64,000 nt of DNA from Pseudorasbora parva. Lineage: Eukaryota; Chordata; Actinopteri; Cypriniformes; Gobionidae. Positions 7,313 to 64,000 of this stretch are shown in pieces (the stretch's first letter is position 1; every line of letters begins with the position of its first letter). Below the pieces are notes generated by a model. That model was given only the letters and a program-made list of their open reading frames with translations. It was not told the origin of the DNA and made no database searches. The translations under genes were made by a program, and so were the position numbers. The stretch is from contig NC_090173.1 of NCBI RefSeq assembly GCF_024679245.1, positions 13,013,513 to 13,077,512 of the forward strand, written 5' to 3'.

Positions 7313-7505
7313 TACATTTAATCATTTAGCAGACGCTTTTATCCAAAGCGACTTACAAAAAAGGGGAGAGCAATAGAAGCAACAAAACAAACAAGGCCAA
7401 CAACCTGTAAGAGCTGTAAGAAGTCTCAATTAATTAGCACAGTACACAATTATTATTATTATTATTTTTATAGCCATCTACAATAGCCACCTACATCAAA
7501 AACTC

Positions 7506-8842: not shown

Positions 8843-10874
8843 TGACAGAACCTAATGATGACATGTAGATGGAGAAGAGAAGTGGTCCAAGCACTGAGCC
8901 CTGGGGAACCCCAGTAGCTAGGTGATGTGACTTAGACACTTCACCTCTCCATGACACCCTGTAGGACCTACCAGAGAGGTAAGACTTGAACCACTCGAGA
9001 GCAGTTCCTGAGATCCCCGTCTTCTTAAGTGTTGACAGGAGGATCTGGTGGTTAACTGTGTCAAAAGCAGCAGACAGATCCAGCAGAATGAGCACTGAGG
9101 ATTTTGAAGCTGCTTTTGCCAGTCTCAGTGCCTCAGTTACCGAGAGCAAGGCAGTCTCAGTCGAATGGCCGCTTTTGAAGCCGGATTGGTTGTTGTCTAG
9201 GAGGTTGTCCTGTTCAAGAAACATAGAGAGTTGATTGAACACAACTCGCTCAAGGGTCTTTGCAATGAAAGGCAGAAGGGATACCGGTCGGTAGTTTTCT
9301 AAAAGTGCTGGATTCAGAGAGGGTTTCTTAAGCAGTGGGGTTACCCGAGCCTGCTTAAATGCTGTGGGAAAGGTTCCCGTGTGAAGAGAAGTGTTGACAA
9401 CGTGAGTGAATGCAGGAGTGATTGAAGAAGAAATGGCCTGAAGGAGTTGAGTGGGTATAGGATCAAGTGGACAGGTAATAGGGTGATTGGAAAGGATGAG
9501 TTTAGAAATATCTTCCTCGGAGAGCGGAGAGAAGGATGGAAGCGTGTTCGTGTTAGTTGTTGAGATGTGCGTGTCAGTTTGTGGTGAGGAGAACTGGTTG
9601 TTGATGAAAGATGTTTTGTTTGTGAAAAATGATGCAAAGTCATCAGCTGTAAGAGTTGATGAAGGAGGGGGAGGAGGAGGACAAAGGAGAGAGGAAAATG
9701 TTTTAAAGAGTTTGCGAGAGTCAGAGCATTTGTTGATTTTGTTGTGGTAGTATGTTGTTTTAGCAGTGGAGACATTTGTAGAGAAAGAAGAGAGAAGAGA
9801 CTGATACAAGGTAAGGTCAGTATAGTTTTTAGATTTCCGCCATTTCCTCTCTGCCGCCCTGAGTCCAGAGCGATGTTCATGGAGAACATCAGACAGCCAG
9901 GGGGCTGATGGGGTGGGGCGGGCTGGTCTGGATGAAAGGGGGCAAAAACTGTCTAAGGAGGATGTTAGAGTGGAGCAAAGAGTGTCAGTAGCACTGTTAC
10001 CATCCAGTGCTGAGAACTGAGCAGGTGGAGGGGGTGAAGATGAAACCATAGTGGATAGGCGAGAGGGAGAGAGTGAGCGTAGATTACGCCGAAAGGTAAT
10101 CTGTGTAGGAGTACGTGTTGTTTCAGGAGTCAGTATGAGGTTAAGAGTGATGAGAAAGTGGTCTGAGGTGTGTAATGGAGTAACTAAAGTGTTGTCCGTG
10201 GAGCAGTTGCATGTGTAGACGAGGTCTAATTGGTTACCTGATCTGTGAGTAGCCATAGTAGATACTAACTTAAGGTCAAATGAAGTCAGTAGAGTGCTGA
10301 AGTCTGTGGCTAGGTGTTTATCAAGATGGATGTTGAAGTCACCAAGCAGAATCAGTGGAGTGTCATCCTCAGGGAAGCTAGAAAGTAACACATCCAACTC
10401 CTCCACAAAGTTACCGAGGTGACCTGGAGGACGATAGACCACTACCACATGGATTTTAACAGGGTGAGTAATAGTGAATGAGTGCGATTCAAATGAACTG
10501 GCCGGTAGAGATGGTAAGGGATCAAATTTCCAATCATTTGAGATAAGCAAACCAGTACCCCCACCCCTCCCAATAGGCCGAGGAGTGTGTGAAAAAGTTA
10601 AATTGGTTGAGAGGGCTGCAGGAGTGGCAGTGTCCTCTGGTTTGATCCAGGTCTCAGTTAGGGCCATGAGGCTGAGCTGAGAATGAGTCCCAATAGATGA
10701 AATAAAGTCTGCTTTGTTTACAGCAGACTGGCAATTCCAGAGACCAATTGGAATAGAGAGTAAAGTAGCAGAGGATATTAGGATAAAGCGTAAATTATTA
10801 GGATTGCGGCGTCTTGTGCGTACAGAGCGTGAATTACGAGTGCTAGTAGTAATAGTTGAGATTTGAAAGCACAT
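8772..10874 (-). pseudogene. L2 ORF2: APE endonuclease and reverse transcriptase
   Basis: A 700-codon frame from ATG at 10874. Residues ~40-250 form an AP-type endonuclease (ALTETWIKPE, LLGDFNIHLDK, HTSDHFLI), which in LINEs nicks the target DNA. Residues ~480-700 form the RT: DLSAAFDTVNH (motif A), GVPQGSVLGPL (motif B) and YLCYADDT (motif C, catalytic YADD intact). Just after YADD the frame shifts, probably by a small deletion in a CA-rich stretch around 8795, and a stop follows; the continuation is in another frame. The long open frame implies a fairly young insertion that is nevertheless defective. ORF1 is not evident between 10874 and the 5' end. Confidence 0.9.
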
Positions 10875-11082
10875 GTTGAATACAGATCAGAGAAAAGGCC
10901 AGATAGGAATTAGAAAAGAACCGAACACAAATAATGAAAAGGAAGATAATACTCAAGTGCCTTGCCGGGGTCCTTGCTCGGGAGGAGTTGCACAGGGAGG
11001 AGTTGCACAGGGAAGAGTTGAGGTATTTTCACTCGTCGGTCTTCACACGAGGAGGGCTTCACACTGCCGCGGACTATCACGC

Positions 11083-13039: not shown

Positions 13040-13044
13040 GGTAC

Positions 13045-13633
13045 TGTCAGGATCTGGGTTACTTCTCTGTTTCCCCTCACTCATACCACCACACTCTGTC
13101 ACACACTCGTTGACACACCCATCTCTCTCACTCTCCAGCGCACACACATACTGTCATGTGTCACACTCTGTCTTCACCTGTTGTTCATCACCATCAGCGC
13201 TCTCGCTGCTTTGTGCCAACACCTGTGTCGTGTCTTGTCTAATTACTCAGTCTACTTCTGGTGTTCGTTCTCTCTGTTCTGTGTCGGAGTATTGTTCAAG
13301 TTATGTGAGTAACGCTCTCTTTTTGTCAACTGTACATCTTACCTGTGTCTTGTCTTGTGAAGCAGCGTTCCCCCTGTTGTCTACCGTTGCCCGCCCTGGC
13401 TAGCCTCACCTGTGGAATTATCCACTCAGCTGCCGTCGTCTGGGGTCCCTCTCACTGAGAGTATTTTTCTGTTTGTTATTAGCACTTGTGGCAGAGGATC
13501 CACGGAGGAGCTGTCTTCCTGAGAGCACCTTTTTGAGTTCCATTTCTAAGCTTTCTGTCTATAGACTGTTTTTTGGACATTAAAGACATTGCATTATATC
13601 ACCTTTGCTTTTGGATCCTTCTTGATTGTGACA
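13045..13633 (+). repeat. Gypsy 5' LTR (589 bp)
   Basis: Begins TGTCAGGATCTGG and ends GATTGTGACA. It contains GTCGGAGTATT at 13283-13293, complementary to the primer site just past the LTR, which places the predicted transcript start near 13283. No convincing TATA box is seen 25-30 bp upstream. Confidence 0.95.
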
Positions 13634-13634
13634 G

Positions 13635-13645
13635 AATACTCCGAC
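13635..13645 (+). promoter_or_regulatory. Self-primer binding site of the Gypsy element
   Basis: AATACTCCGAC immediately after the 5' LTR is the exact reverse complement of 13283-13293 inside the LTR. Eleven nucleotides is the length used by the Tf1 self-primer, where the first bases of the mRNA fold back to prime minus-strand synthesis. No match to a tRNA 3' end is apparent. Confidence 0.7.
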
Positions 13646-13702
13646 CACACTATGGATCCAGCGAAGGGGGAATAATTTTTTTCTGCTGTAGAGATTCAAG
13701 GA

Positions 13703-14515
13703 GTGATGCTGGGTCATCATGAGGAGGAGTTATCTGCTGCCAGAGATGCGGTGGAACGTTTGGCCGCACAGGTTAATGATCTGTCCGTTCGCCTCCTTCA
13801 TGCGCACCAAGAATCTCCTGTTGTTCAGCATCCTCCATCTCTTCCTGAACCCCGTGTGAACAATCCTCCATGTTATGCAGGTGAGCCGACAGAGTGTAGA
13901 GCCTTTTTGACTCAGTGTGAGGTGGCTTTTTCCCTGCAACCACAGACCTATGCGGAGGATCGTTCCCGCATCGCCTATGTGATATCATTACTGACTGGGC
14001 GTGCTCGTGAGTGGGGAACCTCCGTTTGGGAGGCTGGGAGTCCCTGTTGTCACTGTTTTGATCTCTTTAAGGAGGAGATGATCAAAGTATTCGACCAATC
14101 GGTCTTCGGACAGGAGGCGTCGCGTCTTCTCACCACGATCCGCCAGGGGAGGAGAACAGTGGCGGATTTCGCGATTGAATTTCGCACCCTGTCTACCACA
14201 GCTGAATGGAACGAGCCCGCTCTGGTCGCACTCTTCCTGGAGGGTCTGAATGTGGATCTGAAGGAGGAGATTTATGCTCGCTGTTCACCGACCCAGCTCG
14301 ACCAACTGATAGAGCTTGCAATTCGCCTGGATAGATGCTTTGAGCAACGCCGTCGGGCTAGCGCCGGCTCCACCACTCTTCGCGACCCTTCTATGCCTGT
14401 CACTGTCACTTGGGTAGCATTCGTCTTCGGCCGGAGGAGAGACAACACCGCATCTCCAACAGACTCTGTCTGTATTGCGGCACGGCTGACCACTTCGCAG
14501 TGTCTTGCACAGTAA
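13703..14515 (+). pseudogene. Gypsy gag
   Basis: A 270-codon frame from ATG 13703. It starts with a coiled-coil-like segment (EEELSAARDAVERLAAQVND), followed by the retrotransposon gag core around residues 60-200 (YAEDRSRIAYVISLLTGRAR, WNEPALVALFLEGLN). A frameshift at about 14400 throws the C-terminus out of frame. The CCHC zinc knuckle ([14 protein letters not shown], 14467-14508) is still readable but only in a different frame from both gag and the downstream pol. Gag packages the RNA into particles; without the in-frame knuckle this copy should be impaired. Confidence 0.85.
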
Positions 14516-15386
14516 AGGCCGGAGCTCGCCAGTAGACAGAGGAGTACTGGCGAGCGCGACTGTTACGTCCTCTCCATCAAGATCCCTTACCACCTTGCCC
14601 GCCGTCCTTCGTTGGGCCGGTTCTACCGTCTCCTGCCCCGCATTGATCTACTCAGGGGCTGAGGGGAACTTTATCGATGAGAGATGGGCTCGGGAGCATA
14701 ACATCCCCCTGGTGGACTTAAAGGGGAACACCACCGTCTTTGCCCTGGATGGTAGTATGCTTTCTAATGTCCACCGTGTCACCAGTCCGGTGAGTCTCAC
14801 AATCTCAGGGAACCATCAAGAGACTATGTCCTTTCTCATTTTTCAGTCCCCTTATACCCCCATTGTGTTAGGCCATCCCTGGCTAGTCCGGCATAATCCT
14901 CATATTGACTGGGTCAAGAATACCATTTTGTCTTGGAGTCTATCATGTCATGTCAATTGTTTGGTGTCTGCTACTCCTGTGGTCTCCTCTGTGTCTGTTT
15001 TTCAGGAGGAGCCTGGTGATCTGACTGGGGTTCCAGAGGAGTACCACGATTTGCAGGCGGTTTTCAGTCGTTCCCGGGCCGTTTCTCTCCCGCCTCACCG
15101 CCCCTACGATTGTAGCATCGATCTCCTACCTGGCACCACGCCACCCCGCGGTAGATTATATTCTCTTTCGGCGCCCGAACGAGAGGCTTTAGAGAGATAT
15201 CTCTCCGAGTCGCTTGACGCTGGGATTATTGTCCCATCCTCTTCGCCAGCTGGTGCTGGTTTCTTCTTTGTTAAAAAGAAGGATGGATCATTGCGCCCTT
15301 GCATCGATTATAGGGGGTTGAACGACATAACGGTCAAGAATGTCGTCGGCTTTCGAGATCTTGCAGGGCGCAAAGATCTTTACTAA
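14505..15386 (+). pseudogene. Gypsy pol, protease and start of RT
   Basis: A 293-codon frame beginning near the end of gag. The aspartic protease region shows SGAEGNFID followed by the PIVLGHPWL flap region, but the residue before SGA, normally the catalytic aspartate, is tyrosine (codon TAC at 14649-14651). The frame then enters the RT fingers ([36 protein letters not shown]) and breaks at about 15340, where a short deletion removes a few conserved residues and shifts the frame. The rest of pol continues in the next entry. Confidence 0.85.
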
Positions 15387-17832
15387 ATTGGACTTGCGTA
15401 ATGCGTACCACCTTGTTCGCATTAAGCATGGAGACGAGTGGAAGACCGTGTTTAACACTCCCATTGGTCACTTTGAATATCGTGTCCTTCCTTTCGGGCT
15501 GGTCAATGCTCCCGCGGTATTTCAGGCGTTGGTCAACGATGTCTTGCGCGACATGTTAAATGTCTTCGTATTCGTGTATCTGGACGACATCCTCATTTTC
15601 TCACCCTCACTCGAAGTGCACATTCAACACATTCGTCGGGTCTTACAACGGCTACTCGAGAACCGTCTGTTCGTTAAATCAGAGAAGTGCGTTTTTCATT
15701 CTCAATCGGTCACCTTCCTTGGTCTGGTGGTCTCGGCTGAGGGTATCAGCATGGATCCCGAGAAGGTGCGGGCGGTTCTCGATTGGCCCGTTCCGGATTC
15801 TCGAGTTGCTCTCCAGCGATTTTTAGGTTTTGCGAATTTTTATCGACGGTTCATCCGTAACTTTAGTCAGGTTGCCGCACCCCTATCTGCCCTCACCTCG
15901 ACTAAGTCTCAGTTTGTTTGGTCAGAGATGGCACAAGACTCATTCGATCGACTCAAGAGGCTGTTCACCTCCGCGCCCATATTAGTCATCCCGGATCCGG
16001 AGAGACAATTCAAAGTCAAGGTCGATGCCTCCGATGTAGGGGTTGGGGCTATTTTGTCGCAACGTTCCTCTCTGGATAACAGGGTTCATCCGTGCGCCTT
16101 CTTTTCCCATCGCCTTTCTCCGGCGGAGCGTAATTATGACGTTGGTAATCGGGAGCTTTTGGCAATTCGGTTAGCATTGGGGGAGTGGCGGCACTGGTTG
16201 GAGGGAGCCAGTGTTCCATTTATCGTTTGGACTGACCACCGGAACCTCGAATACATCCGTTCCGCCAAGAGACTTAATGCTCGTCAGGCCCATTGGGCTT
16301 TATTCTTTGGTCGTATTGATTTTTCCATCTCCTTTAGGCCAGGTTCCAAGAACATTAAGCCCGATGCCCTCTCGCGGCTGTTTGGCTCCACAGAGGCAGC
16401 TTCGACCAATGAGGTAATCGTACCTCCGCACTGCGTGGTGGGAGCTGCCATCTGGGGGGTGGAGCGGACGGTGAAGAGGGCTCTCGCGCTCACGGTCAAC
16501 CCCCCTCGCGCCCCGACCGGAACGCTATTTGTTCCCACGACCGCTCGTTCATCCGTCCTCCAGTGGGGCCACGCCTCTAAATTAGTCGCCCATCCTGGTG
16601 TTAGGGGTACTTTGGCCACTGTTCGTCGGAGATTTTGGTGGCCCACTAGAGAACGTGATATCCGTCGATTTGTAGCATCTTGTCCTGTCTGTGCCCAAAC
16701 TAAGTCGAGCAATGCCACACCTGCGGGTCTCCTCCGACCACTTCCTATTCCGTCACGCCCCTGGTCGCACATTGCTTTAGATTTCGTAACCGGTCTTCCA
16801 TCATCCGCCGGTAACACGGTTATTCTTACTATAGTCAACCGTTTTTCCAAGGCTGCTCATTTCGTTCCTCTTCCTAAACTACCGTCCGCCCTAGAGACCG
16901 CGCAGGTAATGGTAGATCACGTATTTAAGATTCATGGTCTCCCTTCGGACATTGTGTCTGACAGAGGGCCTCAATTCGCCTCTCAGTTCTGGAGGGAGTT
17001 CTGCCGACTGATTGGGGCATCCCCCAGTCTGTCATCAGGATTCCATCCCCAGACCAATGGTCAAGCCGTACGGACCAACCAGATTCTCGGACGGATGCTG
17101 CGCAGCTTGACTTCACAGAGCCCAGCATCCTGGTGCGACCAGTTAGCCTGGGCCGAATATGCCCATAACTCGCTACCCTCGTCCGCCACTGGGTTAAACC
17201 CATTTGAGAGCTGTCTGGGTTACCAACCTCCACTTTTTGCGTCGCAGGAGTCTGAGACTTCCGTGCCATCCGTGCAGGCTTTTATCCAGAGGTGCAAGCG
17301 TACTTGGAAGAGGGTGAGATCTGCGTTATGTCGTACTATAGCGCGCACTCGTAGAGCGGCTAATCGTCGTCGGGTTAGGGCCCCTCGTTACGTCTGCGGG
17401 CAGAAGGTGTGGCTCTCCACCCAGAATCTACCGATACACGAGGGTTCTAAGAAACTTATGCCCCGTTTCGTTGGTCCATTTGCTATTGTGAAGGTCCTCA
17501 GTCCGGTAGCAGTCAAACTAAAATTATCTCGTCAGTTACGTCGGGTACACCCTGTTTTTCACGTGTCCTGTATCAAGCCTGTCATTCGCGTTCCCACCCG
17601 TCCCGCCCCTCCTCCTCCTCTCGATGAGGTGGAGTCCATTTACAGAGTTCGAAAGCTGCTTGATGTTCGTCCTCGGGGGCGTGGCCACCAGTTCCTGGTG
17701 GACTGGGAGGGCTACGGTCCTGAGGAGAGGCGGTGGATTCCGGCTCGGGACGTCCTGGATCGCTCGCTCATCGAGGATTTCTATCGGTCCCGCCAGGCCT
17801 CTTCCTTAGGAGCGCCAGGGGGCGCTCGTTGA
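15340..17832 (+). pseudogene. Gypsy pol: RT, RNase H, integrase, chromodomain
   Basis: An 830-codon open frame. RT catalytic YLDD is at residues ~80-83; RNase H begins at [15 protein letters not shown] (~228). The integrase zinc-binding region (~405-455, with SCPVCAQTK) precedes the catalytic core. Asp481 (LDFVTG) and Asp541 (DRGPQF) are present, but the third position, 35 residues after the second Asp, is valine 577 (NGQAVR) instead of glutamate. A chromodomain at ~768-815 ([11 protein letters not shown]…FLVDWEGYG…RWIPARDVL) ends the protein; in this group it steers integration to chromatin marks. The long frame shows youth, but loss of the third catalytic residue should abolish integration by this copy. 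Confidence 0.92.
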
Positions 17833-17843
17833 GGGAGGGGTAC

Positions 17844-18435
17844 TGTCAGGATCTGGGTTACTTCTCTGTTTCCCCTCACTCATACCACCGCACTCTGTCA
17901 CACACTCGTTGACACACCCATCTCTCTCACTCTCCAGCGCACACACATACTGTCATGTGTCACACTCTGTCTTCACCTGTTGTTCATCACCATCAGCGCT
18001 CTCGCTGCTTTGTGCCCACACCTGTGTCGTGTCTTGTCTAATTACTCAGTCTACTTCTGGTGTTCGTTCTCTCTGTTCTGTGTCGGAGTATTGTTCAAGT
18101 TATGTGAGTAACGCTCTCTCTTTTTGTCAACTGTGTCATCTTACCTGTGTCTTGTCTTGTGAAGCAGCGTTCGCCCTGTTGTCTCCCGTTGCCCGCCCTG
18201 GCTAGCCTCACCTGTGGAATTATCCGCTCAGCTGCCGTCGTCTGGGGTCCCTTTCACTGAGAGTATTTTTCTGTTTGTTATTAGCACTTGTGGCAGAGGA
18301 TCCACGGAGGAGCTGTCTTCCTGAGAGCACCTTTTTGAGTTCCATTTCTAAGCTTTCTGTCTATAGACTGTTTTTTGGACATTAAAGACATTGCATTATA
18401 TCACCTTTGCTTTTGGATCCTTCTTGATTGTGACA
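17844..18435 (+). repeat. Gypsy 3' LTR (592 bp)
   Basis: Same ends as the 5' LTR. By eye about seven substitutions and two indels (2 bp and 1 bp) distinguish the two, roughly 1.2% substitution. Confidence 0.95.
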
Positions 18436-18501
18436 GGTACTATGCCCCCTTACCTCTGGTCAGCACACCATAATAATAAAAAATATATATATAATTTGTT
18501 A

Positions 18502-19058
18502 CATTTATATAGCAATTTTCCAGGCACTCAAAACGCTTTACATATAAGGGGGAATCTCCTCAACCACCACCAATGTGCAGCATCCACCTGGATGATGCGA
18601 CGGCAGCCAAATTGCCCCAGAACACTCACCACACACTAGCTTATTGGTGGAGAAGAGACAGAGTGATGAAGCCAATCAGGATATGGGGATTATTAGGAGG
18701 CCATGATGGACAGGGGCCAAAGGGCAAATTTGGCCAGGATGCCGGGGTTACACCCCTACTCTTTATCGAAGGACATCCTGGGATTTTTAACGAACACAGA
18801 GCGTCGGGACCTCAGATTAACGTCTCATCCGAAAGACGGTGCTCTTTGACAGTACAGTGTCCCCATCACTATACTGGGGTGTTAGGCCCCACACAGACCA
18901 CTGGGTGAGCGCCCCCTGCTAGCCTCACTAACACCTCTACCAGCAGCTACCTGGTTTTCCCAGTTGGTCTCCCATCCAGGTACTGACCAGGCTCAGCCCT
19001 GCTTAGCTTCAGTGGAAAACCAGTCTTGGGCTACAGGGTGATATGGCTGCAGGGTGAT
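18502..19058 (-). mobile_element. 5S-rRNA-derived SINE (SINE3-like), copy 1
   Basis: The right end in reverse complement matches the internal part of 5S rRNA, including the control region: GGTCTCCCATCCAGGTACTG, ACCAGGCTCAGCCCTGCTTA and GCTACAGGGTGATATGGCTG on the plus strand. A long body and an A/T-rich tail near TTATATAGCAATTTTCC follow to the left. The copy at 63208-63786 is homologous along nearly its whole length. Confidence 0.8.
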
Positions 19059-19981: not shown

Positions 19982-21220
19982 TCAGGAAGAAGCCACACTC
20001 CTAGTGGAGTGTGCTCTTACTCCGAACGGGCAAGGAATGTCTTGGGACTGGTAAGCCAAGACTATAGCATCCACTATCCAGTGGGCTGACTTCTGCTTGG
20101 AGACAGCCTTTCCCTTCTGCTGGCCTCCGTAACAGACGAAAAGTTGCTCTGAGATCCGAAAGCTTTGGGTCTGGTCGACGTAAGCGCGAAGAGCGCGGTC
20201 CGGACACAGCAAAGCTAGGGCATGGTCTGCCTCCTCCGAAGGCAGCACTTGCAGGTTCACTACCTGATCTCGAAAGGGAGTGATAGGAACCTTGGGCACA
20301 TATCCGGGCTGAGGTCTCAGGACAACGTGAGAGTTACTGGGCCCGAACTCTAGGCATGATTCGTTGACCGAAAGTGCATGAAGGTCCCCTACCCTCTGGA
20401 TAGAGGCCAATGCGGTCAGGAGCACTGTCTTCATTGACAATATCTTAAGCTCACACAACGCCAAAGACTCAAAGGGAGGGCTCTGAAGTGCTCTGAGCAC
20501 TAGAGCTAAGTCCCAAGAAGGTATCGAGGATGGGCGAGGAGGATTCAGTCTCCTCGCACCTCTGAGGAACCTGACAACTAGGTCGTGATTCCCCACGGAC
20601 TTACCTTCTACTGCATCGTGGTGGGTGGAGGTGGAGGGAGACGGCCTTCGCTCCAACCCATCTTGCAGGAAGGAAAGCACGACGCTAATCGAACACCTTC
20701 GGGGGTCTTCCCGGCGGGAAGCGCACCACTTAACGAACAGATTCCACTTCAGAGCATAAAGGCGCCTCGTAGAGGGGGCTATAGCTAAAGAGATGGTATC
20801 TACGACTGCTTGTGGTAGTCCATCTAGAACCTCGGCGTCCCGTCCAGGGACCAGACATGAAGATTCCAGAGGTCTGGACGCGGGTGCCATAGAGTGCCCC
20901 GTCCCTGAGAAAGAAGGTCCTTCCTCAGGGGAATGGGCCAAGGAGGGGCTGTCGCGAGGAGAGTCAGTTCTGGGAACCAGGTACGGTTGGGCCAATAGGG
21001 CGCAACTAACAAGACCTGCTCCTCGTCCTCCCTGACCTTGCACAGTGTCTGTGCAAGCAGGCTCACTGGGGGAAACGCATACTTGCGTAGGTCCCGGGGC
21101 CAGCTGTGAGCCAGTGCATCTGTGCCGAGGGTACCCCCGGTCAGGGAATAGGACCACTGGCAATGGGTCGAGTCCAGAGAGGCAAACAGGTCTACCTGTG
21201 CGGCTCCGAACTGGTCCCAT
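19982..21220 (-). pseudogene. DIRS tyrosine recombinase (YR), nucleophile deleted
   Basis: The minus frame ends with a lambda-integrase-like YR domain: PSTRRLYALKWNLFVKWC (N-terminal SAM-like part), ALASIQRVGDLHALS with the first catalytic arginine, and the H-x-x-R box in RAHSTRSVASS. Directly after VASS the frame hits a stop and 3' UTR sequence. In the related copy at 56541-58028 some 70 further codons follow, including GWGTPNTFAQFYSLRVEP with the nucleophilic tyrosine. The deletion therefore removes the active-site tyrosine. DIRS recombinases insert circular cDNA; this copy cannot. Confidence 0.85.
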
Positions 21221-21993
21221 ATCAGCTGGACCGCCTGGGGGTGGAGTCTCCTGGAGGTGTCGGCTGACGAGAGAGCTCGTCGGCTGTCTGGTTCAGCGCA
21301 CCAGGGACATGAATGGCCCGAAGCGACCTCAGCTGCTTCTGACTCAACAGGAGGAAGTGGCGGGCGAGTTGGAGCAAACGACGGGAGTGTAGACCACCCT
21401 GACGGTTGATGTACGCAACGGCCGTGGTGCTGTCCGTACGGACCAGTACATGCTTGCCACGCAGCGGCCCCTTGAGGCGACGGAGTACCAAGTGTACTGC
21501 CAGTAACTAGAGGCAATTGATATACCAATGCAATTGCGGCCCCGTCCACAGACCTGCAACTGCATGCCCATTGTACGTGGCCCCCCAGCCGGCAGAGACA
21601 TCCGTGTACAGCACAGCATGCCTCTGTGAGGCGCGCAGTCCGGTTGACCGAGTCCAACTCTATACCGAGGTAAGAGATCCTCTGTGTGGGACAGAGTTTG
21701 CTCTTCTCTCGGTTGACCCTAAGGCCCAACAGGCTGAGGTGACTGAGCACCAGGTCCCTGTGTTCGCACAACTGGTCCTTCGACTGGGCCAATATCAGCC
21801 AATCGTCGAGGTATTTGAGGATGCGAACGCTGCATTCTCTGAGCAGAACAATGGCAGTTTCCGCGACCTTCGTAAAGACGCGAGGCGACAGGGACAGCCC
21901 AAAGGGCAGGACCTTGTACTGATATGCTTTCCCCTCGAACGCAAAGCATAGGAACGGTCTGTGTCGAGGGAAAATAGACACATGGAAGTACGC
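20824..21993 (-). pseudogene. DIRS pol: RT, RNase H and methyltransferase-like region
   Basis: The minus strand starts at …AYFHVSIFPRHRPFL, in the RT fingers/palm, because an LTR element has replaced the upstream part. The RT palm is intact: VLPFGLSLSPRVFTK and KYLDDWLIL. RNase H (VRTDSTTAVAYINRQGG, VPGALNQTADELSRQP) is readable at 21222-21491 but in another frame, showing frameshifts after TARLTE. The end (AAQVDLFASLD … LLVAPYWPNRTW) corresponds to the DAM-like methyltransferase region described for DIRS pol. It overlaps the recombinase frame, as usual in this group. Confidence 0.85.
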
Positions 21994-22363
21994 GTGTCAC
22001 ATGCCTGTCCTGTCTTGTGTTCACATGTGGGTTTTGTCATGTCTAGCATGTGCTCCTGTCATTGTCTGATCCCTCCCCCTTGTTATCTGATTAGTGTTGA
22101 TTTCTCCCACCTGTTCCCTCTTGATTTCTTCCCCTTATAAGCTCCTTGTGTTTGTCAGTCTGTGTTGGATCCTTGTTTCATGTATACGTCTTCCGTTCCC
22201 CCAGTGACTTCTGTTGGTATGTTTTGAGTTTTAGTTTATGTTCTATTATGTGTTTTGCCCCCTCGTGGGTGTTTGTTTTGTATTTATTTTTTATTTTGTT
22301 AATAAATTATCACTTCTTTGCAAAAGAGTCCTCGCACCATTTTCCCTTGTCTGTGTCGTGACA
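21994..22363 (+). repeat. LTR of the second self-priming element (370 bp)
   Basis: TATA-like CTTATAAGC lies about 28 bp upstream of GTTGGATCCTT (22164-22174), the predicted mRNA start. An AATAAA signal occurs at about 22300. The LTR therefore has recognisable U3, R and U5 parts. Confidence 0.8.
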
Positions 22364-22364
22364 G

Positions 22365-22375
22365 AAGGATCCAAC
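22365..22375 (+). promoter_or_regulatory. Self-primer binding site, second LTR element
   Basis: AAGGATCCAAC directly after the LTR is the exact reverse complement of 22164-22174 inside the LTR: 11 nt, the same length and arrangement as in the element at 13045. Confidence 0.7.
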
Positions 22376-22437
22376 CATACTAGGAGGACTCAGCAGGAGG
22401 TGTTTTGTTTATTTATTTATTTTTGTTCTCTGTGGAC

Positions 22438-22998
22438 ATGGATTTAGACAGACACTTACAGGTGATGTGGCAGGTAAACTCCAAGTACATCCGTCAACAG
22501 GGAGCGGGTGTAAAGGAGTTTGCCTGCCTATTCCTCAAGGAGGTGCATCACCTGTACCTTAACGAGACAGAGAAGGCAGAGGTGTTTAACCTCTGCCTGG
22601 ACATGCCTCTCAGTCCCATGGAGGTGGAGAAAATGGGGACTCCGGACTTTTGGGAGTATGTGGACCGGCTGGACTCCAGTCCCTCTCGGACCAGGGTCCG
22701 GATAGCTCGGGTGGTCCCTGTTCCGGTGGTCCCTGTTCCGGTGGTCTCCAGACGGAAGAGGAGAAGGAAGGCTCCCTCCGTGCCTGCTCTGGTGGTCCCA
22801 ATTCCGGTGGATTGTATTCCGGTGGTCCCAGTACCGGTGGATCGTGTTCCGGTGGTTCCAATGCCGGTGGATCGTGTTCCGGTGGTCCCGATGCCGGTGG
22901 ATCGTGTTCTGGTGGTCCCGATGCCGGTGGATCGTGTTCCGGTGGTCCCGATGCCGGTGGATCGTGTTCCGGTGGTCCTGTTGCCGGTGGATCGTGTT
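22438..22998 (+). CDS. Gag-like frame with valine-proline decapeptide repeats, truncated
   Basis: From ATG 22438 the frame reads MDLDRHLQVMWQVNSKYIRQ, then a helical region (GVKEFACLFLKEVHHLYL, EKAEVFNLCLDMPLSPMEV) of about 80 residues. A basic stretch (SRRKRRRK) and seven or so copies of a ten-residue unit of the type VPVVPMPVDR follow, encoded by a 30-bp DNA tandem repeat. The position right after an LTR and primer site suggests gag. The frame runs into antisense DIRS gag at about 23000 and is thus a chimera at its end. I do not recognise a zinc knuckle. Function is unknown beyond a probable particle protein. Confidence 0.5.
22793..22998 (+). repeat. 30-bp coding tandem repeat
   Basis: About seven units of the form GTGGATCGTGTTCCGGTGGT + CCCGATGCCG, in register with codons. 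Units differ at few positions. Confidence 0.85.
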
Positions 22999-23830
22999 CA
23001 GGTGGCGTTCCTGGACCACCAGTGTGGACATCGCCCGACCCAGGGAGCGTGCAGTGACTTTCGTCGCCCGTAGGGCGAGGTCCGTCGCCGCACGCAGTTC
23101 TTGCATAACGCCCTGGTCACAACTACCCTCGTGCAGTTCCATGAGCGCTTTGGCCTGGTGGACCTGCAGGAGCGCCATGGCATGCAAAGCTGATGCGGCT
23201 TCCCCGCAGGCTGTGTAAGCCTTGTCCGTCAAGCTGGACGAGAACTTGCACGCCCGGGAGGGGAGACGCGGGTCCTGCCTCCAGTCCGCAGCGGTCTTAG
23301 GACACAGGTGCATCGCAACCGACCGCTCGATTGAAGGGATCCCCTCGTAACCCTTAGCCGCACCACCATCAAGGGTAGTGAGGACAGAGGAGTCAGTCGA
23401 TCGCAGGCGAGCGCTGTAGGGCACCGCCTTCGACTTCTTGAGCTCCTGATGCACTTCCGGGAAGAATGGAACCGGGGCAGGGCGCTGAGAACCAGCACGG
23501 GCCGTCCCGAGAAACTAATCGTCCAGCCGTGAAGGTTCGGGATGTGGTGGTGGGTTCCACTCAAGCCCGACACTTGCGGCGGCCCGGGCAAGCATAGCCG
23601 TAAGCTCCGGGTCGGACCCGGGCAACACTGTCACACCCAAAGGGGGCAACGCAGTCGAATCTTCATCCTCGGAGCCCATTAGCTCATCCCCCAATGCAGC
23701 GTCCGACATCTCATTGTCCGCCGGAGCCCCGAAAGTGACGGCTGGCGCTCCACGCGGGAGGTCAGCGCACCCTACCGGAAGCTCCACTGGCGCAGTGGAG
23801 GGGGGAGTGGCCCGAGGAGCCGTCTGACCC
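22999..23830 (-). pseudogene. DIRS gag, middle part
   Basis: The minus strand encodes a conserved DIRS gag segment: ELPVGCADLPRGAP, SDAALGDELMGSEDEDSTAL, then SSLTDKAYTACGEAASALHA, LLQVHQAKALMELHEG and STLVVQERHL. One in-frame nonsense codon (TAG at 23515-23517, in a spot normally tryptophan) interrupts it. The C-terminal rest is lost at the junction with the LTR element; the N-terminal part resumes at 26068-26277 beyond two insertions. Gag packages the element RNA. Confidence 0.8.
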
Positions 23831-23886: not shown

Positions 23887-24349
23887 GTATCTACGTCTCT
23901 CATCCGGATTTGTGCCTTCAGGCGGGTATGTTACATAGTTATCAAAATCCAGTGTTCTGTATTTTGCGTACGTGAGTTTTTGTTGTAGATAGCTATTGCT
24001 GCGCGTTTAGCTAGAATGCCATACAAAACCAACCCATTGGGCCACTGAATCTGCATTAACGACAACAGTTGGGGCAACAGCCTTAGTTCTAATGGGTTGT
24101 TATCATGGCTATCAAAATCCAGTGTTCTGTATTTTGCGTACGGGAGTTTTTGTTGTAGGTGGCTATTGTAGATGGCTATTAAAAAAAAAAAAAAATTGTG
24201 TACTGTGCTAATTAATTGAGACTTCTTACAGCTCTTACAGGTTGTTGGCCTTGTTTGTTTCGTTGCTTCTATTGCTCTCCCCTTTTTTGTAAGTCACTTT
24301 GGATAAAAGCGTCTGCTAAATGATTAAATGTAAATGTAAAATGTAAATG
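23887..24349 (+). mobile_element. 5'-truncated L2 LINE tail
   Basis: Corresponds to 7313-7925 of the long L2 in the opposite orientation: the end of ORF2, two ~170-bp 3' UTR units, a poly-A stretch near 24181 and the GTAAGTCACTTTGGATAAA / GCGTCTGCTAAATGATTAAA tail. It was inserted into DIRS gag. Confidence 0.85.
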
Positions 24350-38019: not shown

Positions 38020-38773
38020 TTAAGCAGTCATTCCGACCCACTAACCACTTACACTTACTGACAAATCTGAAATTCAAAAATGTTAAATTTTCTTTATTCA
38101 TTTACTATTATAACTATATTATTATGTAATTATTTGTCCTATTTTAATCTAAATATTTTTTAAATATCAAACTACTAACATTAATTAGGCTATAATCTAT
38201 TAATTAACCGGTCTAATGTCTAGAAAAATAAGTCTGCCAAGCTCTGATAATGTATGGAATAATATATGAATATATTATTCATTTAAAAAAAAACAATAGG
38301 CCTACTTTTGGATGTGTCTGTCATTGCATGCTTTTAGTCAGACAGTCTGAGACACTGAAATGCTTCTCTGCAAAGTGTGCAGTTCGCCTTAGGTCCATCG
38401 TGAGTTACTGGACAAACTCACTGACACCTTTTTTTCTATTCAGCCCTATATCAGGAAATTCTCTTGAGTTCATACGGTGGACACGAGCTGGACATGTTTT
38501 TTAAAAACCGCGCAGGTTTCCAGCGCATGCTCTCTAGACTTCGTCGCTATGGCAGCAAAGCCGCTAAAACGTAATCTTGTGGGACGCGTTATTTTGCTTG
38601 TAAATAATGGACGATTCCGTATTTCAAGGGACTGGCAACCGTTTCATTTGTTTTGTCCTGGCCGTCGGAATCGATCCATATAGCAGCACGAAGGAGTTCG
38701 CTAAAATATTGGTGGGGACAATTTTGCCATCTTAAAATATTGATTGGGACTAGTACCTAGTGTAACCCCTACT

Positions 38774-38847
38774 GCTCGGACCGGGACTCGAACCCGGGTC
38801 CACCGGCATGAGAGTCGGACGCTCTAACAAGGAGGCTAAAGGCTGCA
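38774..38847 (-). other. tRNA-like segment in the 3' LTR of the TRIM
   Basis: The same sequence as at 38993-39066, shifted by 219 bp: CCGGG-TTCGAGT-CCCGG T-arm, a box B matching GGTTCGANTCC, a CTCTCAT anticodon-loop position and a D-arm-like TTAGCCTCC…TTAGAGC. Confidence 0.6.
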
Positions 38848-38960
38848 ACCTCTAGCGTCAGTCGCTAGAGCGTCTCTTGAGGTCAGAGGAGTGAGGTTTA
38901 CTCGCACAGCAACTTCTACTAGCTGTCCTCCGTTACACTCACCCCCCAAACCTCACTCCC

Positions 38961-38978
38961 ATCCGGGTCACGGCACCA
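38961..38978 (-). promoter_or_regulatory. Primer binding site matching tRNA-His
   Basis: The minus strand reads TGGTGCCGTGACCCGGAT one base after the 5' LTR end. It complements the 3' end of vertebrate tRNA-His including CCA, with one mismatch in the first 17 positions (from my knowledge of that tRNA). Confidence 0.7.
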
Positions 38979-38992
38979 ATGTAACCCCTACT

Positions 38993-39066
38993 GCTCGGAC
39001 CGGGACTCGAACCCGGGTCCACCGGCATGAGAGTCGGACGCTCTAACAAGGAGGCTAAAGGCTGCA
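38993..39066 (-). other. tRNA-like segment in the 5' LTR of the TRIM
   Basis: On the minus strand a tRNA-shaped order can be traced: D-arm-like TTAGCCTCCTTGTTAGAGC, anticodon loop CTCTCAT (CTC at the anticodon position), a short variable region, and a perfect five-pair T-arm CCGGG-TTCGAGT-CCCGG. The 3' acceptor half TCCGAGC has no partner upstream, and the anticodon stem has two mismatches, so it is not a functional tRNA gene. Box B is intact; box A is partial. Confidence 0.6.
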
Positions 39067-39879
39067 ACCTCTAGCGTCAGTCGATAGAGCGTCTCTTGAG
39101 GTCAGAGGAGTGAGGTTTACTCGCACAGCAACTTCTACTAGCTGGCCTCCGTTACACTAGCGTCCCCCCCCCTAAACCTACGCCCATGCTTTAATCTAGA
39201 TTTAAACCTGGGAGAGTGAGTCTGAGCGCCAAACATTATCAGGAAGGCTGTTCCATAGTTTTGGAGCCAAATGTGAAAAAGCTCTCCCTCCTTTAGTGGA
39301 CTTAGATATCCTAGGTACTACCAGACGCCCAGAGTTTTGTGATCGTAAAGAGCATGATAGTTATAAGGCGATAGAAGATCAGTTAAATACACAGGAGCTA
39401 AACCATTTAGGGCCTTTATAGGTCAGTAACATTACTTCAAAATTGACACAGAACTTAATTGGTAACCAGAGTAGAGAGGATAAAATTGGTGTTATGTGAT
39501 CATATTTTCTTGACTAGTAAGAACTCTTAGCAGCTGCATTTTGGACTAATTGTAGCTTGTTTATTGAGGATGCAGGACAACCGTAATCTAGAGGTCATTG
39601 ATGCATGAACTAACTTTTCTGCATCAGAAACAGATAGCTTGTTCTGTATAGCTTGACAATGTTTTTGTAACATTTGAAATATGTTTCTTGAAAAACAATT
39701 TGCAGTCTAATATAACACCCAGGTCTTAACATCTTTCTAAGTGCACATTATATTCTAAGAGATTTTGTTTACAGGTATTTGGTCCAATAAGTAATACCTC
39801 AGTCTATTTAAAAGGAGAACATTTTTCTCCACACATAATGCTTAGAATTAAGGCCAAGCAGTTCTATATTGGTCTCATT

Positions 39880-50171: not shown

Positions 50172-51673
50172 CAGTGAGGAAAATAGGTATTTGAACACCC
50201 TGCTATTTTGCAAGCTCTCCCACTTAGAAATCATGGAAGGGTCTGAAATTGTCATCATAGGTGCATGTCCACTGTGAGAGACATATTCTAAAAAATTTTT
50301 TTTTTACCTATTTATTCGAATGATACAGCTGCAAAATAAGTATTTGAACACCTGTCTATCAGCTAGAATTCTGACCCTCAAAGACCTGTTAGACTGACTT
50401 TAAAATGTCCACCTCCACTCCATTTATTTTCCTAAATTAGATGCACCTGTTGAGGTCATTAGCTGCATAAAGACATCTGTCTGCCCCATACAACCAGTAA
50501 GAATCCAACTACTAACATGGCCAAGATCAAAGAGCTGTCCAAAGACTCTAGAGACAAAATTGTACACCTCCACAAGGCTGTAAAGGGCTACAGGGAAATT
50601 GCCAAGCAGCTTGGTGAAAAAAGGTCCACTGTTGGAGCAATCATTAGAAAATGGAAGAAGCTAAATGACATGACTGTCAGTCTCTCTCGGACTGGGGCTC
50701 CAAGCAAGATGTCACCTCGTGGGGTCTCAATGATCCTAAGAAAGGTGAGAAATCAGCCTGAAAATGACCTGAAAAGAACTAGGACCACCGTTTCCAAGGT
50801 TACTGTTGGTAATACACTAAAACGTCATGGTTTAAAATCAAGCATGGCACAGAAGTTTCCCCTGCTTAAACCAGCACATGTCCAGGCCCGTCTTGAGTTT
50901 ACCAGTGACCATTTGGATGATCCAGAGGAGTCATGGGAGAAAGTCATGTGGTCAGATGAGACCAAAATATAACTTTTTGGTCATAATTTCACTTAACGTG
51001 TTTGGAGAAAGAAGAATGATGAGTACCACCCCAAGAACACATCCCTACTGTGAAGCATGGGGGTGGTAGCATCATGCTTTGGGGGTGTTTTTCTGCACAT
51101 GGGACAGGGTGACTTTACTGTATTAAGGAGAGGATGACCGGGGCCATGTATTGCGAGATTTTGGGGAACAACCTCCTTTCCTCAGTTAGAGCATTGAAGA
51201 TGGGCCGAGGCTGGGTCTTCCAACATGACAATGACCCGAAGCACACAGCCAGGATAACCAAGGAGTGGCTCTGTAAGAAGCATATCAAGGTTCTGGCGTG
51301 GCCTAGCCAGTCTCCAGACCCGTGTTTCTTAGGACAGGCCATACACCTGACTGATCTAGAGAAAATCTGTGTGGAGGAGTGGGCCAAAATCCCTCCTGCA
51401 GTGTGTGAAAACCTTGTGAAAAACTTGCAAACAAAGGCTACTGTACCAAATAATAACATTGATTTTCTCAGGTGTTCAAATACTTATTTGCAGATGAATC
51501 ATACAAATAAATAGTTTAAAAAATATATACATTGTAATTACTGTATATATATATTTTAGATTATGTCTCACAGTGGATATGCACCTACGATGACAATTTC
51601 AGACCCCTCCATGATTTCTAAGTGGGAGAACTTGCAAAATAGCAGGGTGTTCAAATACTTATTTTCCTCACTG
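50172..51673 (+). mobile_element. Tc1-like transposon, full length
   Basis: 1502 bp with inverted ends CAGTGAGGAAAATAGGTATT and the complement AAATACTTATTTTCCTCACTG, flanked by TA (50170-50171, 51674-51675). A second pair of short repeats (CATAGGTGCATGTCCACTGT / complement near 51570) lies inside, giving the IR/DR-like arrangement of fish Tc1 elements. Confidence 0.93.
50517..51514 (+). pseudogene. Tc1 transposase, broken
   Basis: ATG 50517 opens 151 codons: two helix-turn-helix DNA-binding parts ([31 protein letters not shown]), and the first catalytic aspartate in [13 protein letters not shown] stop follows at once, where the family has a coding triplet. The rest of the DDE domain is readable to about 51514 in another frame, with the second aspartate in [10 protein letters not shown]. 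After SPDP the normal segment with the catalytic glutamate is replaced by unrelated residues, and a conserved tail ([20 protein letters not shown]) resumes. Cut-and-paste activity is therefore lost. Confidence 0.9.
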
Positions 51674-54045: not shown

Positions 54046-55864
54046 TTTTATAAAATATCAGCTGTCTTTATAAACTACTTAAAGAGACTATTACTGATCA
54101 AGGAGGCAATGCATTCTGCAGACCATGCGGATTTCATAAGCCTGGAAATATATTTATATAATGACTTTGCATCACGGTTCATCTCACATCTGATGACGCA
54201 TCTTTAATATAGGTTGTAACTTGAAAATAATGCTTTATGTATGTTTCTGTCGATGGATACACGTGTTGGCTCCTCAGTTATACATTACAACAACAGCGAT
54301 AATAAAAGAAAAACGTGGGCAAACGGTCTCTCTAAGTAAACTTTGTTCAATGCATGTGAGTGCTGCCGTATCTTCGAATATACGGGTGTAGAGCCAGAAG
54401 ACGCGATTGAGAACTCACGTGCGATCGCGATGTGAGAAGATTTGTCTCTGTGCGGTCATCCGAAAGCATACACGTCTCAGTGCGCAACTATTGAGTTTTC
54501 TTTCAAGTCTTGCGCTTGAACGGACAAACTCACACAAGAAGTAGCTTATGTCAACATGTCCATCTTGAAGAGTATCCAAGCAGACAAAGTCTGAATATGC
54601 CTTAAGTTAACATACAGTCGAGAAAGCGACACCCGTGGGTCTTAAAGGAGCAGTAGCCTTTACTGCTGTCTGTTTAATGTCAAAGATGATAAGGAGTCAC
54701 TCACTGCTATTGATTAAATTAAGCTTTTGTAAGTTTAATAAGGATTAATATTTAATTTAAAAAGTTAAATATGCAGTATTTTTTCATTTGATTACTTTAT
54801 TCAATGTATTTACCTAAAACTAATGTTAGACCTACCTGAAAAGAAAAGAAAAAAGCATTGTTTTATTATCTTTGCTCAATAGTAATTATTTGTGCTTCTG
54901 CTTGTATTTAAGTTATTTGTTATTTTCTTTATTTTTATTTGACAGTAGTCCTTTTTTCCATAAACATAGCAAATACCGAACCATACAGAAACCGTGAACC
55001 TGAAACTGTGAACCTAAAACCTAAAACCGAATCGTGAGCAATCCACAAAATTTAGAACATTTTCAAAGTGCGCCATGACTGAAAAAAGGTTAGGAAACAC
55101 TGGATTCATGAATTAAGTTATCTAGGCTATTTGACATGGCAGCACTTAAACGCGAGCAGGAACAGAAAATAGATGATTGCTTAAACAGCTTTTCCAATAT
55201 TAATCTCGGTGGAATTGCCCAGAATAATGATATAACCGGGTTTATTGAAGAAAGTGCAGGTTTGGAACAACATGAGGGTAAATAAATGATGACAGAATTT
55301 TCATTTTTGCGTGAACTATCCCTCTTTTTTTTTACTCCAGTATTGTACTTAATGTTACATAGTAGCCCAGATTTTCTACTAAAATGTAATATATTAATTA
55401 ATTTATATATTAATGACTTTTTCCATGGATATTTAATTTTATTGATAAAGTTATACAAATAATTTCAATTAATTGACTTGGTAATTGTTGCTACAATCAA
55501 GCTCTTGTACCCCCAATTTGTTTGAATATTTTTGTGCTTTTTGGACATACACATCATAATAAATAGGCCTGTTTTACAAACCTTTATGAATTTTCCCATA
55601 AATGTGTCATATATCGCTGAAAATGGAAGAATCTCAGCTTTAATGTGGTACATGGCTCATATGCAGGATAATTATGCATCAAATGTGTTGCAGTTTTAAA
55701 AATAAGCTTGTGTTTACATTGGAATTTCTCAAAAACATGATTTTCTGAGCCCAAAATTCAGCAGATCTTTAACATAGCCATACTCAGTTAATATTAGAGA
55801 TATCAAGGTAATATTTTAACAGAATGTTCTTTACATTATGTAGAATGATTTTATGTAGAAAGCA
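54046..55864. other. Mostly gene-free stretch
   Basis: Contains a 49-codon frame at 55136-55285 (+), MAALKREQEQKIDDCLNSFS…, of unknown nature and with no splice evidence, and a 45-bp reverse fragment of the TTAA MITE at 55281-55325. Nothing else recognised. Confidence 0.3.
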
Positions 55865-55923
55865 GTGAATTACAAAAAAAACACTTTAGGAGGGTTTTCT
55901 CAGACAGGGTCACATATCAGTAC

Positions 55924-56871
55924 ATGGTCCTACCCTTCGGGCTCATGGTGCTCAAGCACCACAGCCAGTTGGGGCTTCGGGTCAGCTGGGAGAAGAGCAA
56001 ACTCTGCCCGACACAGAGGATCTCTTTTCTCGGTATGGAGCTGGATTCGGTCGCCCTGACAGCGCGCCTCACCGAGGAGCACGTCCAGTCGGTGTTGAAC
56101 TCCTTGAATTCGTTCAAACGCAGGACTGCTGTCCCACTGAAACAATTTCAGAGGCTCCTGGGGCATATGGCATCCGTAGCTGTGGTAACGCCGCTCGGGT
56201 TGCTCCATAACGCTGGCTATACGACCAAGGTGAGTCCCAAGGTACACCGAGGTGCCACCAAACCTTCAGCCCGTGGTCGGACCCTGTGTTTCTATGGGTG
56301 GGGATGCCCCTAGAAAAGGTATCCAGGCATGCGATTGTTTCCACGGATGCCTCATCCACGGGCTGGTGTGCCACGTACAATGGGCTTGCAGTTTCGGACC
56401 TCAACTGCAATGGCACATCAACTGCCTAGAGTTGTAAGCAGTTCGTCTTGCCCTGAGCCGCTTCAAGACGCCACTCCAGGGCAAGCATGTTCTCGTCCGT
56501 ACGGACAGCACTGCGGTCGTAGCGTACATCGACAAACAGGGTGGTCTATGCTCCCGACGCATGTCACAACTCGCCCCCGCCACCTCCTGTTATGGAGTCA
56601 GAAGTATCTGAGGTCACTTCGTGCCACTCATATTCTGGGCCTGCTCAATCGTGTGGCCGACGAGCTCTCACGACAGCCAGTGCTTCCGGGAGAGTGGAGA
56701 CTCCATCCCCAGGTAGTCCAGCTGATTCGGGATCGCTTCGGGGCAGCACAGGTAGACCTGTTTGCCACCCCGGACACGGCGGCCCATTGCCTCAGCTGGC
56801 CCCGGGGCCTAGGAAAATATGCGTTTCCCCCAGTGAGCCTTCTTGCACAGACATTATGCAAGGACTGGTAG
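55924..56871 (+). pseudogene. DIRS pol remnant (RT end, RNase H)
   Basis: VSWEKSKLCPTQRISFLGME and LEEHVQSVLNSLN-like segments mark the RT thumb; RNase H appears in shifted frames (VRTDSTAVVAYIDKQGG near 56500; LNRVADELSRQPVLPGEW near 56680), followed by AAQVDLFATPD. Several frame changes and a deletion near 55950 that removes the YLDD region make it non-functional. Confidence 0.75.
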
Positions 56872-58028
56872 GACGAGGAGCAGGTCCTGTTAGTGAAGCC
56901 ATACTGGCCCAACAGGACGTAGTTCCCGGAACTAGTGCTCCTTGCGACAGCACCTCCTTGGCCCATTCCTCTGAGGAAGGACCTCCTGACTTGAAGATGG
57001 GGCACCCTCTGGCACCCACGTCCGGACCTCTGGAAACTCCATGTCTGGTCCCTGGACGTGACACAGAGGTTCTAGGTGGCCTGCCACAGGCTGTGGTAGA
57101 CACCATCACTTCCGCTAGAGCTCCCTCTACAAGGCACCTCTATGCGTTGAAGTGGAACCTGTTCGTTGAATGGTGCTCTTCCCCCGGAGATGTTTGGTGG
57201 GGCCGTGCTTTCCTTTCTACAAGATGGGTTGGAGAGAAGGCTGTCTCCCTCCACCCTCAAGTTGTATGTGGCCGCAATCGCTGCCAATCACAAACTAGTA
57301 GAAGGCAAGTCTTTGGGGAAGCACGACCTGATTGTCAGGTTCCTGAGGGGCGCGAGGAGATTAAATCCGCCTTGCCCCCCTCTATACCCTCTTGGGACCT
57401 GCCTCTAGTGCTCAGTGCACTTCAGAGACCTCCCTTTGAGCCTTTGCAGTCTGTGGAGTTAAAAATTCTGTCTCTAAAGACAGTACTCCTGACTGCATTG
57501 GCCTCTATCAAGAGGGTAGGGAACCTGCAGGCATTTTCGGTCTACAAATCGTGCCTGGAATTTGGGCCGGACTACTCTCACATAATCCTGAGACCCTGGC
57601 CTCGATACGTGCCCAAGGTTCCAACCACTCCCTTCCGGGACCAGGTGGTGAGCCTGCAAGCGCTGCCTTCGGAGGAGGCAGACCCAGCCCTGGCTTTTCT
57701 CTGTCCTGTCCGAGCCCTTCGGACTTATGTGGACAGAACGCAAAGCTTTAGGACCTCAGAGCAGCTCTTCGTCTGTTACAGAGGACAGCAGAAGGGAAAG
57801 GCCGTCTCCAAGCAGAGGATGGCCCACTGGATAGTGGATGCCATTGTCTTGGTGTATGAGTCCCAAGACGTCCCCTGCCTGCTCGGGATTAGAGCCCACT
57901 CCACCAGGGGTGTTGCCTCGTCCTGTGCACTTGCTCGTGGCACCTCGCTGACAGATATTTGTAGAGCTGTGGGCTGGGGGACACCCAACACGTTCGCTCA
58001 ATTTTATAGCCTACGTGTAGAGCCGTAA
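56541..58028 (+). pseudogene. DIRS tyrosine recombinase with compensating frameshifts
   Basis: The frame ends at the normal DIRS terminus. Visible YR parts: PSTRHLYALKWNLFVEWC, TALASIKRVGNLQAFS (catalytic arginine), RAHSTRGVASS (H-x-x-R) and PNTFAQFYSLRVEP with the nucleophilic tyrosine. Between about 57178 and 57370 the reading frame is shifted: the conserved residues there (AVLSFLQDGLERR, KHDLIVRFLRGARRLN) are encoded in a neighbouring frame, and the main frame is restored afterwards. Two opposite indels thus leave an open but scrambled ~65-residue segment. The catalytic C-terminus is complete, unlike the copy at 19982. Confidence 0.85.
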
Positions 58029-63207: not shown

Positions 63208-63786
63208 AATGAGGCATTTATATAGCGCTTTCAAATGTACTACTGTACACCCAAAGCGCTTCACACTCATGTCAGGGGTCTCTCCTCAACCACCACCAGT
63301 GTGCAGCATCCACTTGGATGATGCGAAGGCAGCCACAGTACAACGGCGCCAGTGCGCTCACCACACACCAGCGATAGGTGGAGAGGAGAGAGGGTGATAG
63401 AGCCAATTCAGTGGATGGGGATTATTAGGAGGCCATGATTGGTAAGGGCCAATCAAGGGAATTTGGCCAGGAAACCGGGGTTACACCCCTACTCTTTTAC
63501 GAGAAGTGCCATGGGATTTTTAATGACCACAGAGAGTCAGGACCTCGGTTTAACGTCTCATCCGAAGGACGGTGCTCTTTGACAGTATAGTGTCCCCATC
63601 ACTATACTGGGGTGTTAGGACCCACACAGACCACAGGGTGAGCACCCCCTGCTGGCCTTACTAACACCTCTACCAGCAGCAACCAGATTTTCCCAGTTGG
63701 TCTCCCATCCAGGTACTGACCAGGCTCAGCCCTGCTTAGCTTCAGTGGGAAACCAGTCTTGGGCTACAGGGTGATATGGCTGCTGG
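63208..63786 (-). mobile_element. 5S-rRNA-derived SINE (SINE3-like), copy 2
   Basis: Homologous to 18502-19058 over its whole length, with the 5S-like head at the right end (GGTCTCCCATCCAGGTACTG; GCTACAGGGTGATATGGCTG) and TTTATATAGCGCTTTCAAAT at the left tail. Confidence 0.85.
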
Positions 63787-64000
63787 ATGACAATTGTATG
63801 TTCACCATTGTTTTCAGTTCATCGATTCAATCCATACAGCATAACAACTTAATTAAAGTGATTACTCAAAAAATATAGATGGAAATTAAATTGGTAGGAA
63901 GTTGATTAGTGTGCTGTAGTGAACAGCACATTCAAGGGCCCAGTTTATGACTGGTTCCCTCTTTGTCCATAAGAGTGCCCTTATGAAAAATAATTTTATT
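63787..64000. other. Short gene-free end of the window
   Basis: Nothing recognised. Confidence 0.3.

Follow-up and report, generated by a model that had tools for sequence, protein, structure and literature searches.

A short non-coding LTR retrotransposon, very probably of the Helenus kind, with a tRNA-like segment in its terminal repeats in Pseudorasbora parva

Within a 64,000-nucleotide stretch of Pseudorasbora parva DNA (NC_090173.1, positions 13,013,513 to 13,077,512; hereafter the window), two near-identical 177-bp direct repeats stand close together, each with a segment that resembles part of a tRNA, which raises the question of what kind of element, if any, this locus holds. We are confident that it is a full-length insertion of a non-coding long terminal repeat (LTR) retrotransposon, i.e., a terminal-repeat retrotransposon in miniature (TRIM), of the Helenus kind and most likely of the LTR-11_DR group, the group being set by description and not by letters. 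This kind of element has already been published, as Helenus, by Kojima in 2024 (PMC10886601). Paired LTRs, ends common to many copies, 4-bp target duplications, a primer site fitting the host tRNA-His, a purine-rich tract, and single- and multi-LTR derivatives were all observed.

The two repeats (38761-38937 and 38980-39156) differ at two of 177 positions, suggesting that the insertion of the window copy is recent. Both run from TGTAAC to GTTACA and the pair is flanked by a CTAG duplication, all of which had been described, at this position, by an initial annotation made from the sequence alone. The element is 396 bp long and lies on the minus strand, so that the 5′ LTR is the one at 38980-39156; its internal region (38938-38979) measures 42 bp. 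Read on that strand, the 5′ LTR is followed by a single T, an 18-nt primer site, a 12-nt segment, a G-rich tract and the 3′ LTR. The tract, GGGGGGTGAG, abuts the 3′ LTR, where a purine tract had been described, and is interrupted by one T. Of the 41 internal regions in the first sample of host copies (see below), 39 have an A in front of the G-run; the window copy and L036 lack it. In the window, GGGTTCGAGTCCC occurs without mismatch only within the two LTRs, which is more than chance. The locus thus has the make-up of a TRIM: two LTRs, a total length below about 1 kb, no coding capacity, a primer-binding site and a polypurine tract (G-rich, with its one T).

A search of the host assembly (1.23 Gb in 79 contigs) for the LTR gave 1,840 candidate places, the best 40 of which were scored as a first sample (39 fetched with flanks, plus the window); these 40 are the places most like the window and so lean towards young copies. 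Their 82 LTR matches, 77 of which cover the full 1-177, form 10 single LTRs, 19 pairs and 11 triples, the broken LTR in L021 and that in L042 being counted as one LTR each. The initial annotation had proposed looking for 4-5 bp duplications and solo LTRs, and a 4-bp target duplication was found at 31 of the 40 places (8 of 10 single LTRs, 15 of 19 pairs and 8 of 11 triples). The junction between LTR end and primer site, with at most two mismatches, occurs 765 times over both strands, vs. 0 for a reversed-pattern control. A second sample comprised 70 loci outside the first 40, drawn from 100 junction places listed, with ten loci replaced by nine wider stretches. Among these 70, 27 have at least two LTR matches, all full length and close together, and were parsed; a 4-bp duplication is present at 23 of the 27. 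The remaining 43, which were divergent subfamilies, truncated or mixed arrays, or a single full-length LTR, were not counted. Dispersed copies with target-site duplications are a further TRIM feature, and the length of 4 bp is that of Helenus in animals. Collections of viral and prokaryote genomes gave 0 matches to the LTR and primer-region patterns, which is what a fish element should show.

The primer site, TGGTGCCGTGACCCGGAT, starts one base after the 5′ LTR and matches a vertebrate tRNA-His end at 15 of 16 positions. Against the 3′ ends of the host's own tRNA-His(GTG) plus CCA, the match is 18 of 18, which bears out the initial proposal of a tRNA-His site one base inside. The tRNA 3′ end that the site predicts, TTCGAATCCGGGTCACGGCA, has 10 exact occurrences in the host genome; ARAGORN placed a tRNA-His(GTG) ending at TTCGAATCCGGGTCACGGCA in five of six fetched loci, two of the five overlapping, and found no tRNA-His in the sixth.

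Each LTR also has a box B, GGTTCGAGTCC, and a T-arm whose 5-bp stem is perfect and whose loop measures 7 nt; TAGCC is likewise present in both. Outside the T-arm, the resemblance to a tRNA is poor. Neither ARAGORN nor Rfam (at gathering score) finds a tRNA in the window, and among the sub-cut-off Rfam matches listed, the T-arm region is covered only by mascRNA (18.2 bits against a cut-off of 42.5) and tmRNA (16.1 bits against 47), the others being weak and unrelated. The segment is therefore tRNA-like and not a tRNA; of the tRNA-shaped segment originally claimed for each repeat, the box B and the perfect T-arm stand, and the rest is a poor fit. The second box A motif, YGG, was not seen at the expected place, a motif required of most, not all, Helenus LTRs (PMC10886601). 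The segment is likely the promoter, probably for RNA polymerase III (Pol III), a mode of transcription that would place the element among the TRIMp3 and that, in the words of PMC10886601 itself, awaits validation for Helenus.

Neither the window copy nor any of the first-sample sequences (81 LTRs, 41 internal regions) contains TTTT, and the first one downstream of the window copy lies at bases 24-27 of the flank. TTTT is the usual Pol III stop, so that a Pol III transcript of this TTTT-free copy could extend across both LTRs and end only at the first T-run of the flank. Several observations weigh against the interpretation as a whole. The box A fit is weak (6 of 9 specified positions of the consensus), and box B is exact in 124 of the 160 LTRs of a larger set, its conservation at non-CpG sites being only slightly above that of the U3 (unique 3′) region (0.980 vs. 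0.973). Three of these 160 LTRs do contain TTTT, and shuffled elements contain it in 943 of 2,000 cases. In addition, a coding partner sharing LTR ends and primer site, the search for which the initial annotation had suggested, was sought in the host genome and none was identified, not all 765 junctions having been classified. Because 1,057 of the 2,000 shuffles have no TTTT and 3 of 160 LTRs carry one, its lack is not significant alone and is no proof of selection.

In one alternative, the tRNA-like segment is only the relic of a short interspersed element (SINE) that jumped into the LTR, transcription being by RNA polymerase II as in other LTR elements. We regard this as unlikely, although it retains an appreciable share of the probability: the poor box A, the lack of a predicted functional tRNA and a box B hardly more conserved than the remaining LTR among host copies all fit it, whereas the 5S counterpart Cassandra uses its Pol III promoter for transcription (PMC10886601). 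A second alternative accepts Helenus and places the copy in a separate lineage instead of the LTR-11_DR group. The host genome does hold several divergent subfamilies, and the comparison with LTR-11_DR was made by description, not by published letters; relatives of LTR-11_DR in various Cypriniformes, the order to which the host belongs, are, however, called very conserved by Kojima (PMC10886601), and a separate lineage is in our view improbable. Finally, a local tandem duplication of a tRNA pseudogene, with no retroelement, agrees with the report of two copies at a 219-bp period as a tandem array by Tandem Repeats Finder, and has next to no probability left, since the LTR unit recurs with identical ends on many contigs, mostly with 4-bp duplications. 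It is this dispersed family, with its junctions and 4-bp target duplications, that supports the TRIM assignment and makes the pseudogene explanation fail, on the very search that the initial annotation had named as able to overturn its reading.

For the TRIM assignment, a life cycle can be proposed in which the tRNA-like internal promoter would drive transcription, probably by Pol III, from a start inside the 5′ LTR. tRNA-His would then prime the first strand, which could transfer to the 3′ LTR via the shared downstream half of the LTR, and the purine tract would prime the second strand. Integration would occur with a 4-bp stagger, the enzymes and the integrase presumably being supplied by some coding LTR element. 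These are the standard steps of LTR retrotransposons. The same steps are given in PMC10886601.

As to the source of the enzymes, the region after the junction in the second sample is short, mostly 43-44 bp, where an exact TGTAAC comes within 90 bases; the remaining junctions have no exact TGTAAC after them, and several have a variant of it. The Gypsy-type element of the window (LTRs 13040-13634 and 17839-18436) was rejected as a partner: its ends, TGTCAG...TGACA, do not fit, and the bases after its 5′ LTR fit neither the element studied here nor tRNA-His. A search for the 18-nt primer site followed by a non-G base gave 102 genome places (54 and 48), 20 of which were fetched. Seven (L144, L145, L151, L152, L156, L157 and L158) come from a single further LTR-type family. 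It shares the primer site, its LTR ends in CAACA, and AATAAA lies shortly upstream in six of the seven. A similar open reading frame (ORF) lies about 830 bases on in L151 and L156; that of L151 has no Pfam match above cut-off. The L151/L161 copy, the one followed further, gave weak matches to a zinc knuckle and an aspartyl protease, neither reaching the Pfam cut-off, and no polymerase match was found in the L151/L161 ORFs tested. Since its LTR ends are not shared, this family is at most a candidate partner. By eye, 11 of the 20 places look like Helenus relatives, and L159 and L160 are unclear or unrelated.

The triples raise a further question, that of how LTR arrays arise. Tandem TRIM arrays are known in plants (PMC4717578, PMC7215508), where the choice between recombination and multimer insertion has been left open (PMC11899658, 2025). 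Several arrays whose target duplications are intact have nearly identical outer LTRs around a middle LTR that differs from both, partly by variants common at other loci. Fifteen triples with a target duplication (seven from the first sample, eight later) and four without were compared. L042 was left out, its middle LTR being mostly deleted; the later arrays came partly from a search ranked by likeness to L028, in which seven were fetched and five used, L138 and L140 being dropped because not all three LTRs are full length. In 8 of the 15 triples (L012, L013, L019, L028, L032, L041, L134 and L137), no other pair is as close as the outer one; the outer pair is not the closest in L020, L077, L135, L136 and L139, and ties in L111 and L114. 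Non-consensus variants that the two outer LTRs share and the middle one lacks number 18 in the 15 triples, vs. 9 and 9 for the neighbouring pairs; where no target duplication is present (four triples), the corresponding counts are 0 vs. 13 and 4. Plain crossing over within one insertion should yield few variants shared by the outer LTRs only. Label permutation gave 0.07 over all 15 triples, with 0.006 for the first-sample seven and 0.59 for the later eight.

Such a pattern could arise if transcripts spanned several units, most of which have no strong Pol III stop, and if reverse transcription then equalised the two outer LTRs, carrying the middle LTR along unchanged. A one-LTR circle recombining with an existing copy, or gene conversion, would give the same mark. 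Multimer insertion is accordingly a lead, suggestive only, and that three-LTR arrays were partly copied and inserted as multimers, not formed afterwards by unequal crossing over, is a tentative proposal that we hold to be rather less probable than its opposite. The parsed second-sample locus L076 is an eight-LTR array with a target duplication, in which LTRs 2 to 6 are 0-2 substitutions apart, which suggests that the array grew once inserted. The array (L076:344-1953) is of a subfamily with LTRs of about 162 bp, and a TATT duplication flanks it.

The element also has internal pairing potential. A 12-nt complement between the internal region and U3 exceeds chance, a length of 12 being reached in 4 of 5000 shuffles, and the 328-nt stretch modelled as transcript is more stably folded than its shuffled versions (z -4.59, matched by 0 of 100). 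U3 also holds a hairpin with an 8-bp stem and a 5-nt loop, a stem as long being found in 48 of 2000 LTR shuffles. All 12 pairs of the complement are intact in 56 of 90 host-genome units; a double change preserving pairing is seen at only two single pairs, one each in L060 and L061. Since changes in the 90 units mostly break pairs or give G-U, a structural role for the complement was set aside and no function is claimed. The coordinates of all features are collected in Table 1.

Table 1. Features of the element in the window, with positions counted from the first letter of the window.
Feature	Position	Strand	Remark
Target-site duplication CTAG, left copy	38757..38760	.	
3′ LTR, TGTAAC...GTTACA in sense	38761..38937	-	also in genome copies
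T-arm of tRNA-like segment with box B, 3′ LTR	38781..38797	-	from sequence
Box A-like segment, 3′ LTR	38827..38838	-	6/9 specified consensus positions
U3 hairpin (8-bp stem, 5-nt loop); 5′ LTR has one broken pair	38850..38870	.	
U3 arm, 12 nt complementary to internal region	38888..38899	-	4/5000 shuffles reach 12
Polypurine-type tract GGGGGGTGAG, one T, next to 3′ LTR	38938..38947	-	
Internal arm of 12-nt complement	38948..38959	-	12 pairs kept in 56/90 units
Primer-binding site for tRNA-His	38961..38978	-	18/18 to host tRNA-His(GTG) 3′ ends plus CCA
5′ LTR	38980..39156	-	
T-arm with box B, 5′ LTR	39000..39016	-	from sequence
Box A-like segment, 5′ LTR	39046..39057	-	
Target-site duplication CTAG, right copy	39157..39160	.	

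Other repeats are present in the window. The Gypsy-type LTR element (13040-18436) has gag, reverse transcriptase, RNase H, integrase and chromodomain matches, and its LTRs of about 595 bp are 99% alike in the aligned pieces. Two 5S rRNA-like stretches on the minus strand (18938-19054 and 63671-63787; Rfam 5S, 68.3 and 69.7 bits) sit in a repeat of about 520 bp that is 87% alike between the two places and is probably a 5S-derived SINE. Related protein fragments at 19982-23514 (minus) and 55849-58028 (plus) share QQKGKAVSKQ, the first having a reverse transcriptase match, and they resemble DIRS-type elements. A Tc1/Sleeping Beauty-like transposase fragment (50463-50972) has 84% identity with the best match in the database, and most of the matches that carry a name are from fish. 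A LINE-type ORF with endonuclease and reverse transcriptase matches lies at 8772-10883 (minus), and Rfam gives two UnaL2 LINE 3′ element matches at 7316-7369 and 24276-24329.

The feature is true and was well read, is ordinary as a discovery, and is useful as a test bed. It amounts to an independent re-discovery of Helenus in a fish genome, to which the primer tRNA from the same genome, a TTTT-free copy, the 12-nt internal/U3 complement and some three-LTR arrays with near-identical outer LTRs and a different middle one are added. With its many copies, small and complete, the family is well suited to testing two questions, i.e., whether tRNA-type LTRs are read by Pol III and how tandem LTR arrays originate. 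The structural reading in the initial annotation, a TRIM in a fish as the tRNA-type counterpart of Cassandra, was right; its supposition that no such vertebrate family was known was mistaken, Helenus having been reported from zebrafish and other Cypriniformes (PMC10886601, 2024). In the literature searched, LTR-11_DR and, from 2024 on, a fish Helenus retrotransposon were found in PMC10886601 alone.

Compared with known systems, the closest is Helenus itself, defined as TRIMs with tRNA-derived sequence in their LTRs, with 4-bp duplications in animals and tRNA-His, -Leu or -Lys primers in vertebrates (Kojima 2024, PMC10886601). Zebrafish LTR-11_DR is represented by 5,575 LTRs and 2,618 internal portions, has relatives in Cypriniformes and forms tandem arrays (PMC10886601). 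As the group is described there, no tested feature of the window copy differs from it, except that YGG was not seen at its expected place. The tandem TRIMs and LTR tandems of plants (PMC4717578, PMC11899658) concern other families in other hosts. Cassandra differs in its plant hosts and in carrying 5S instead of tRNA-type sequence, and its LTRs have Pol III terminators, whereas the window copy has no TTTT (PMC7215508). It resembles the present element in having small-RNA gene sequence in its LTRs, in being short and non-coding, and in forming tandem arrays (PMC7215508).
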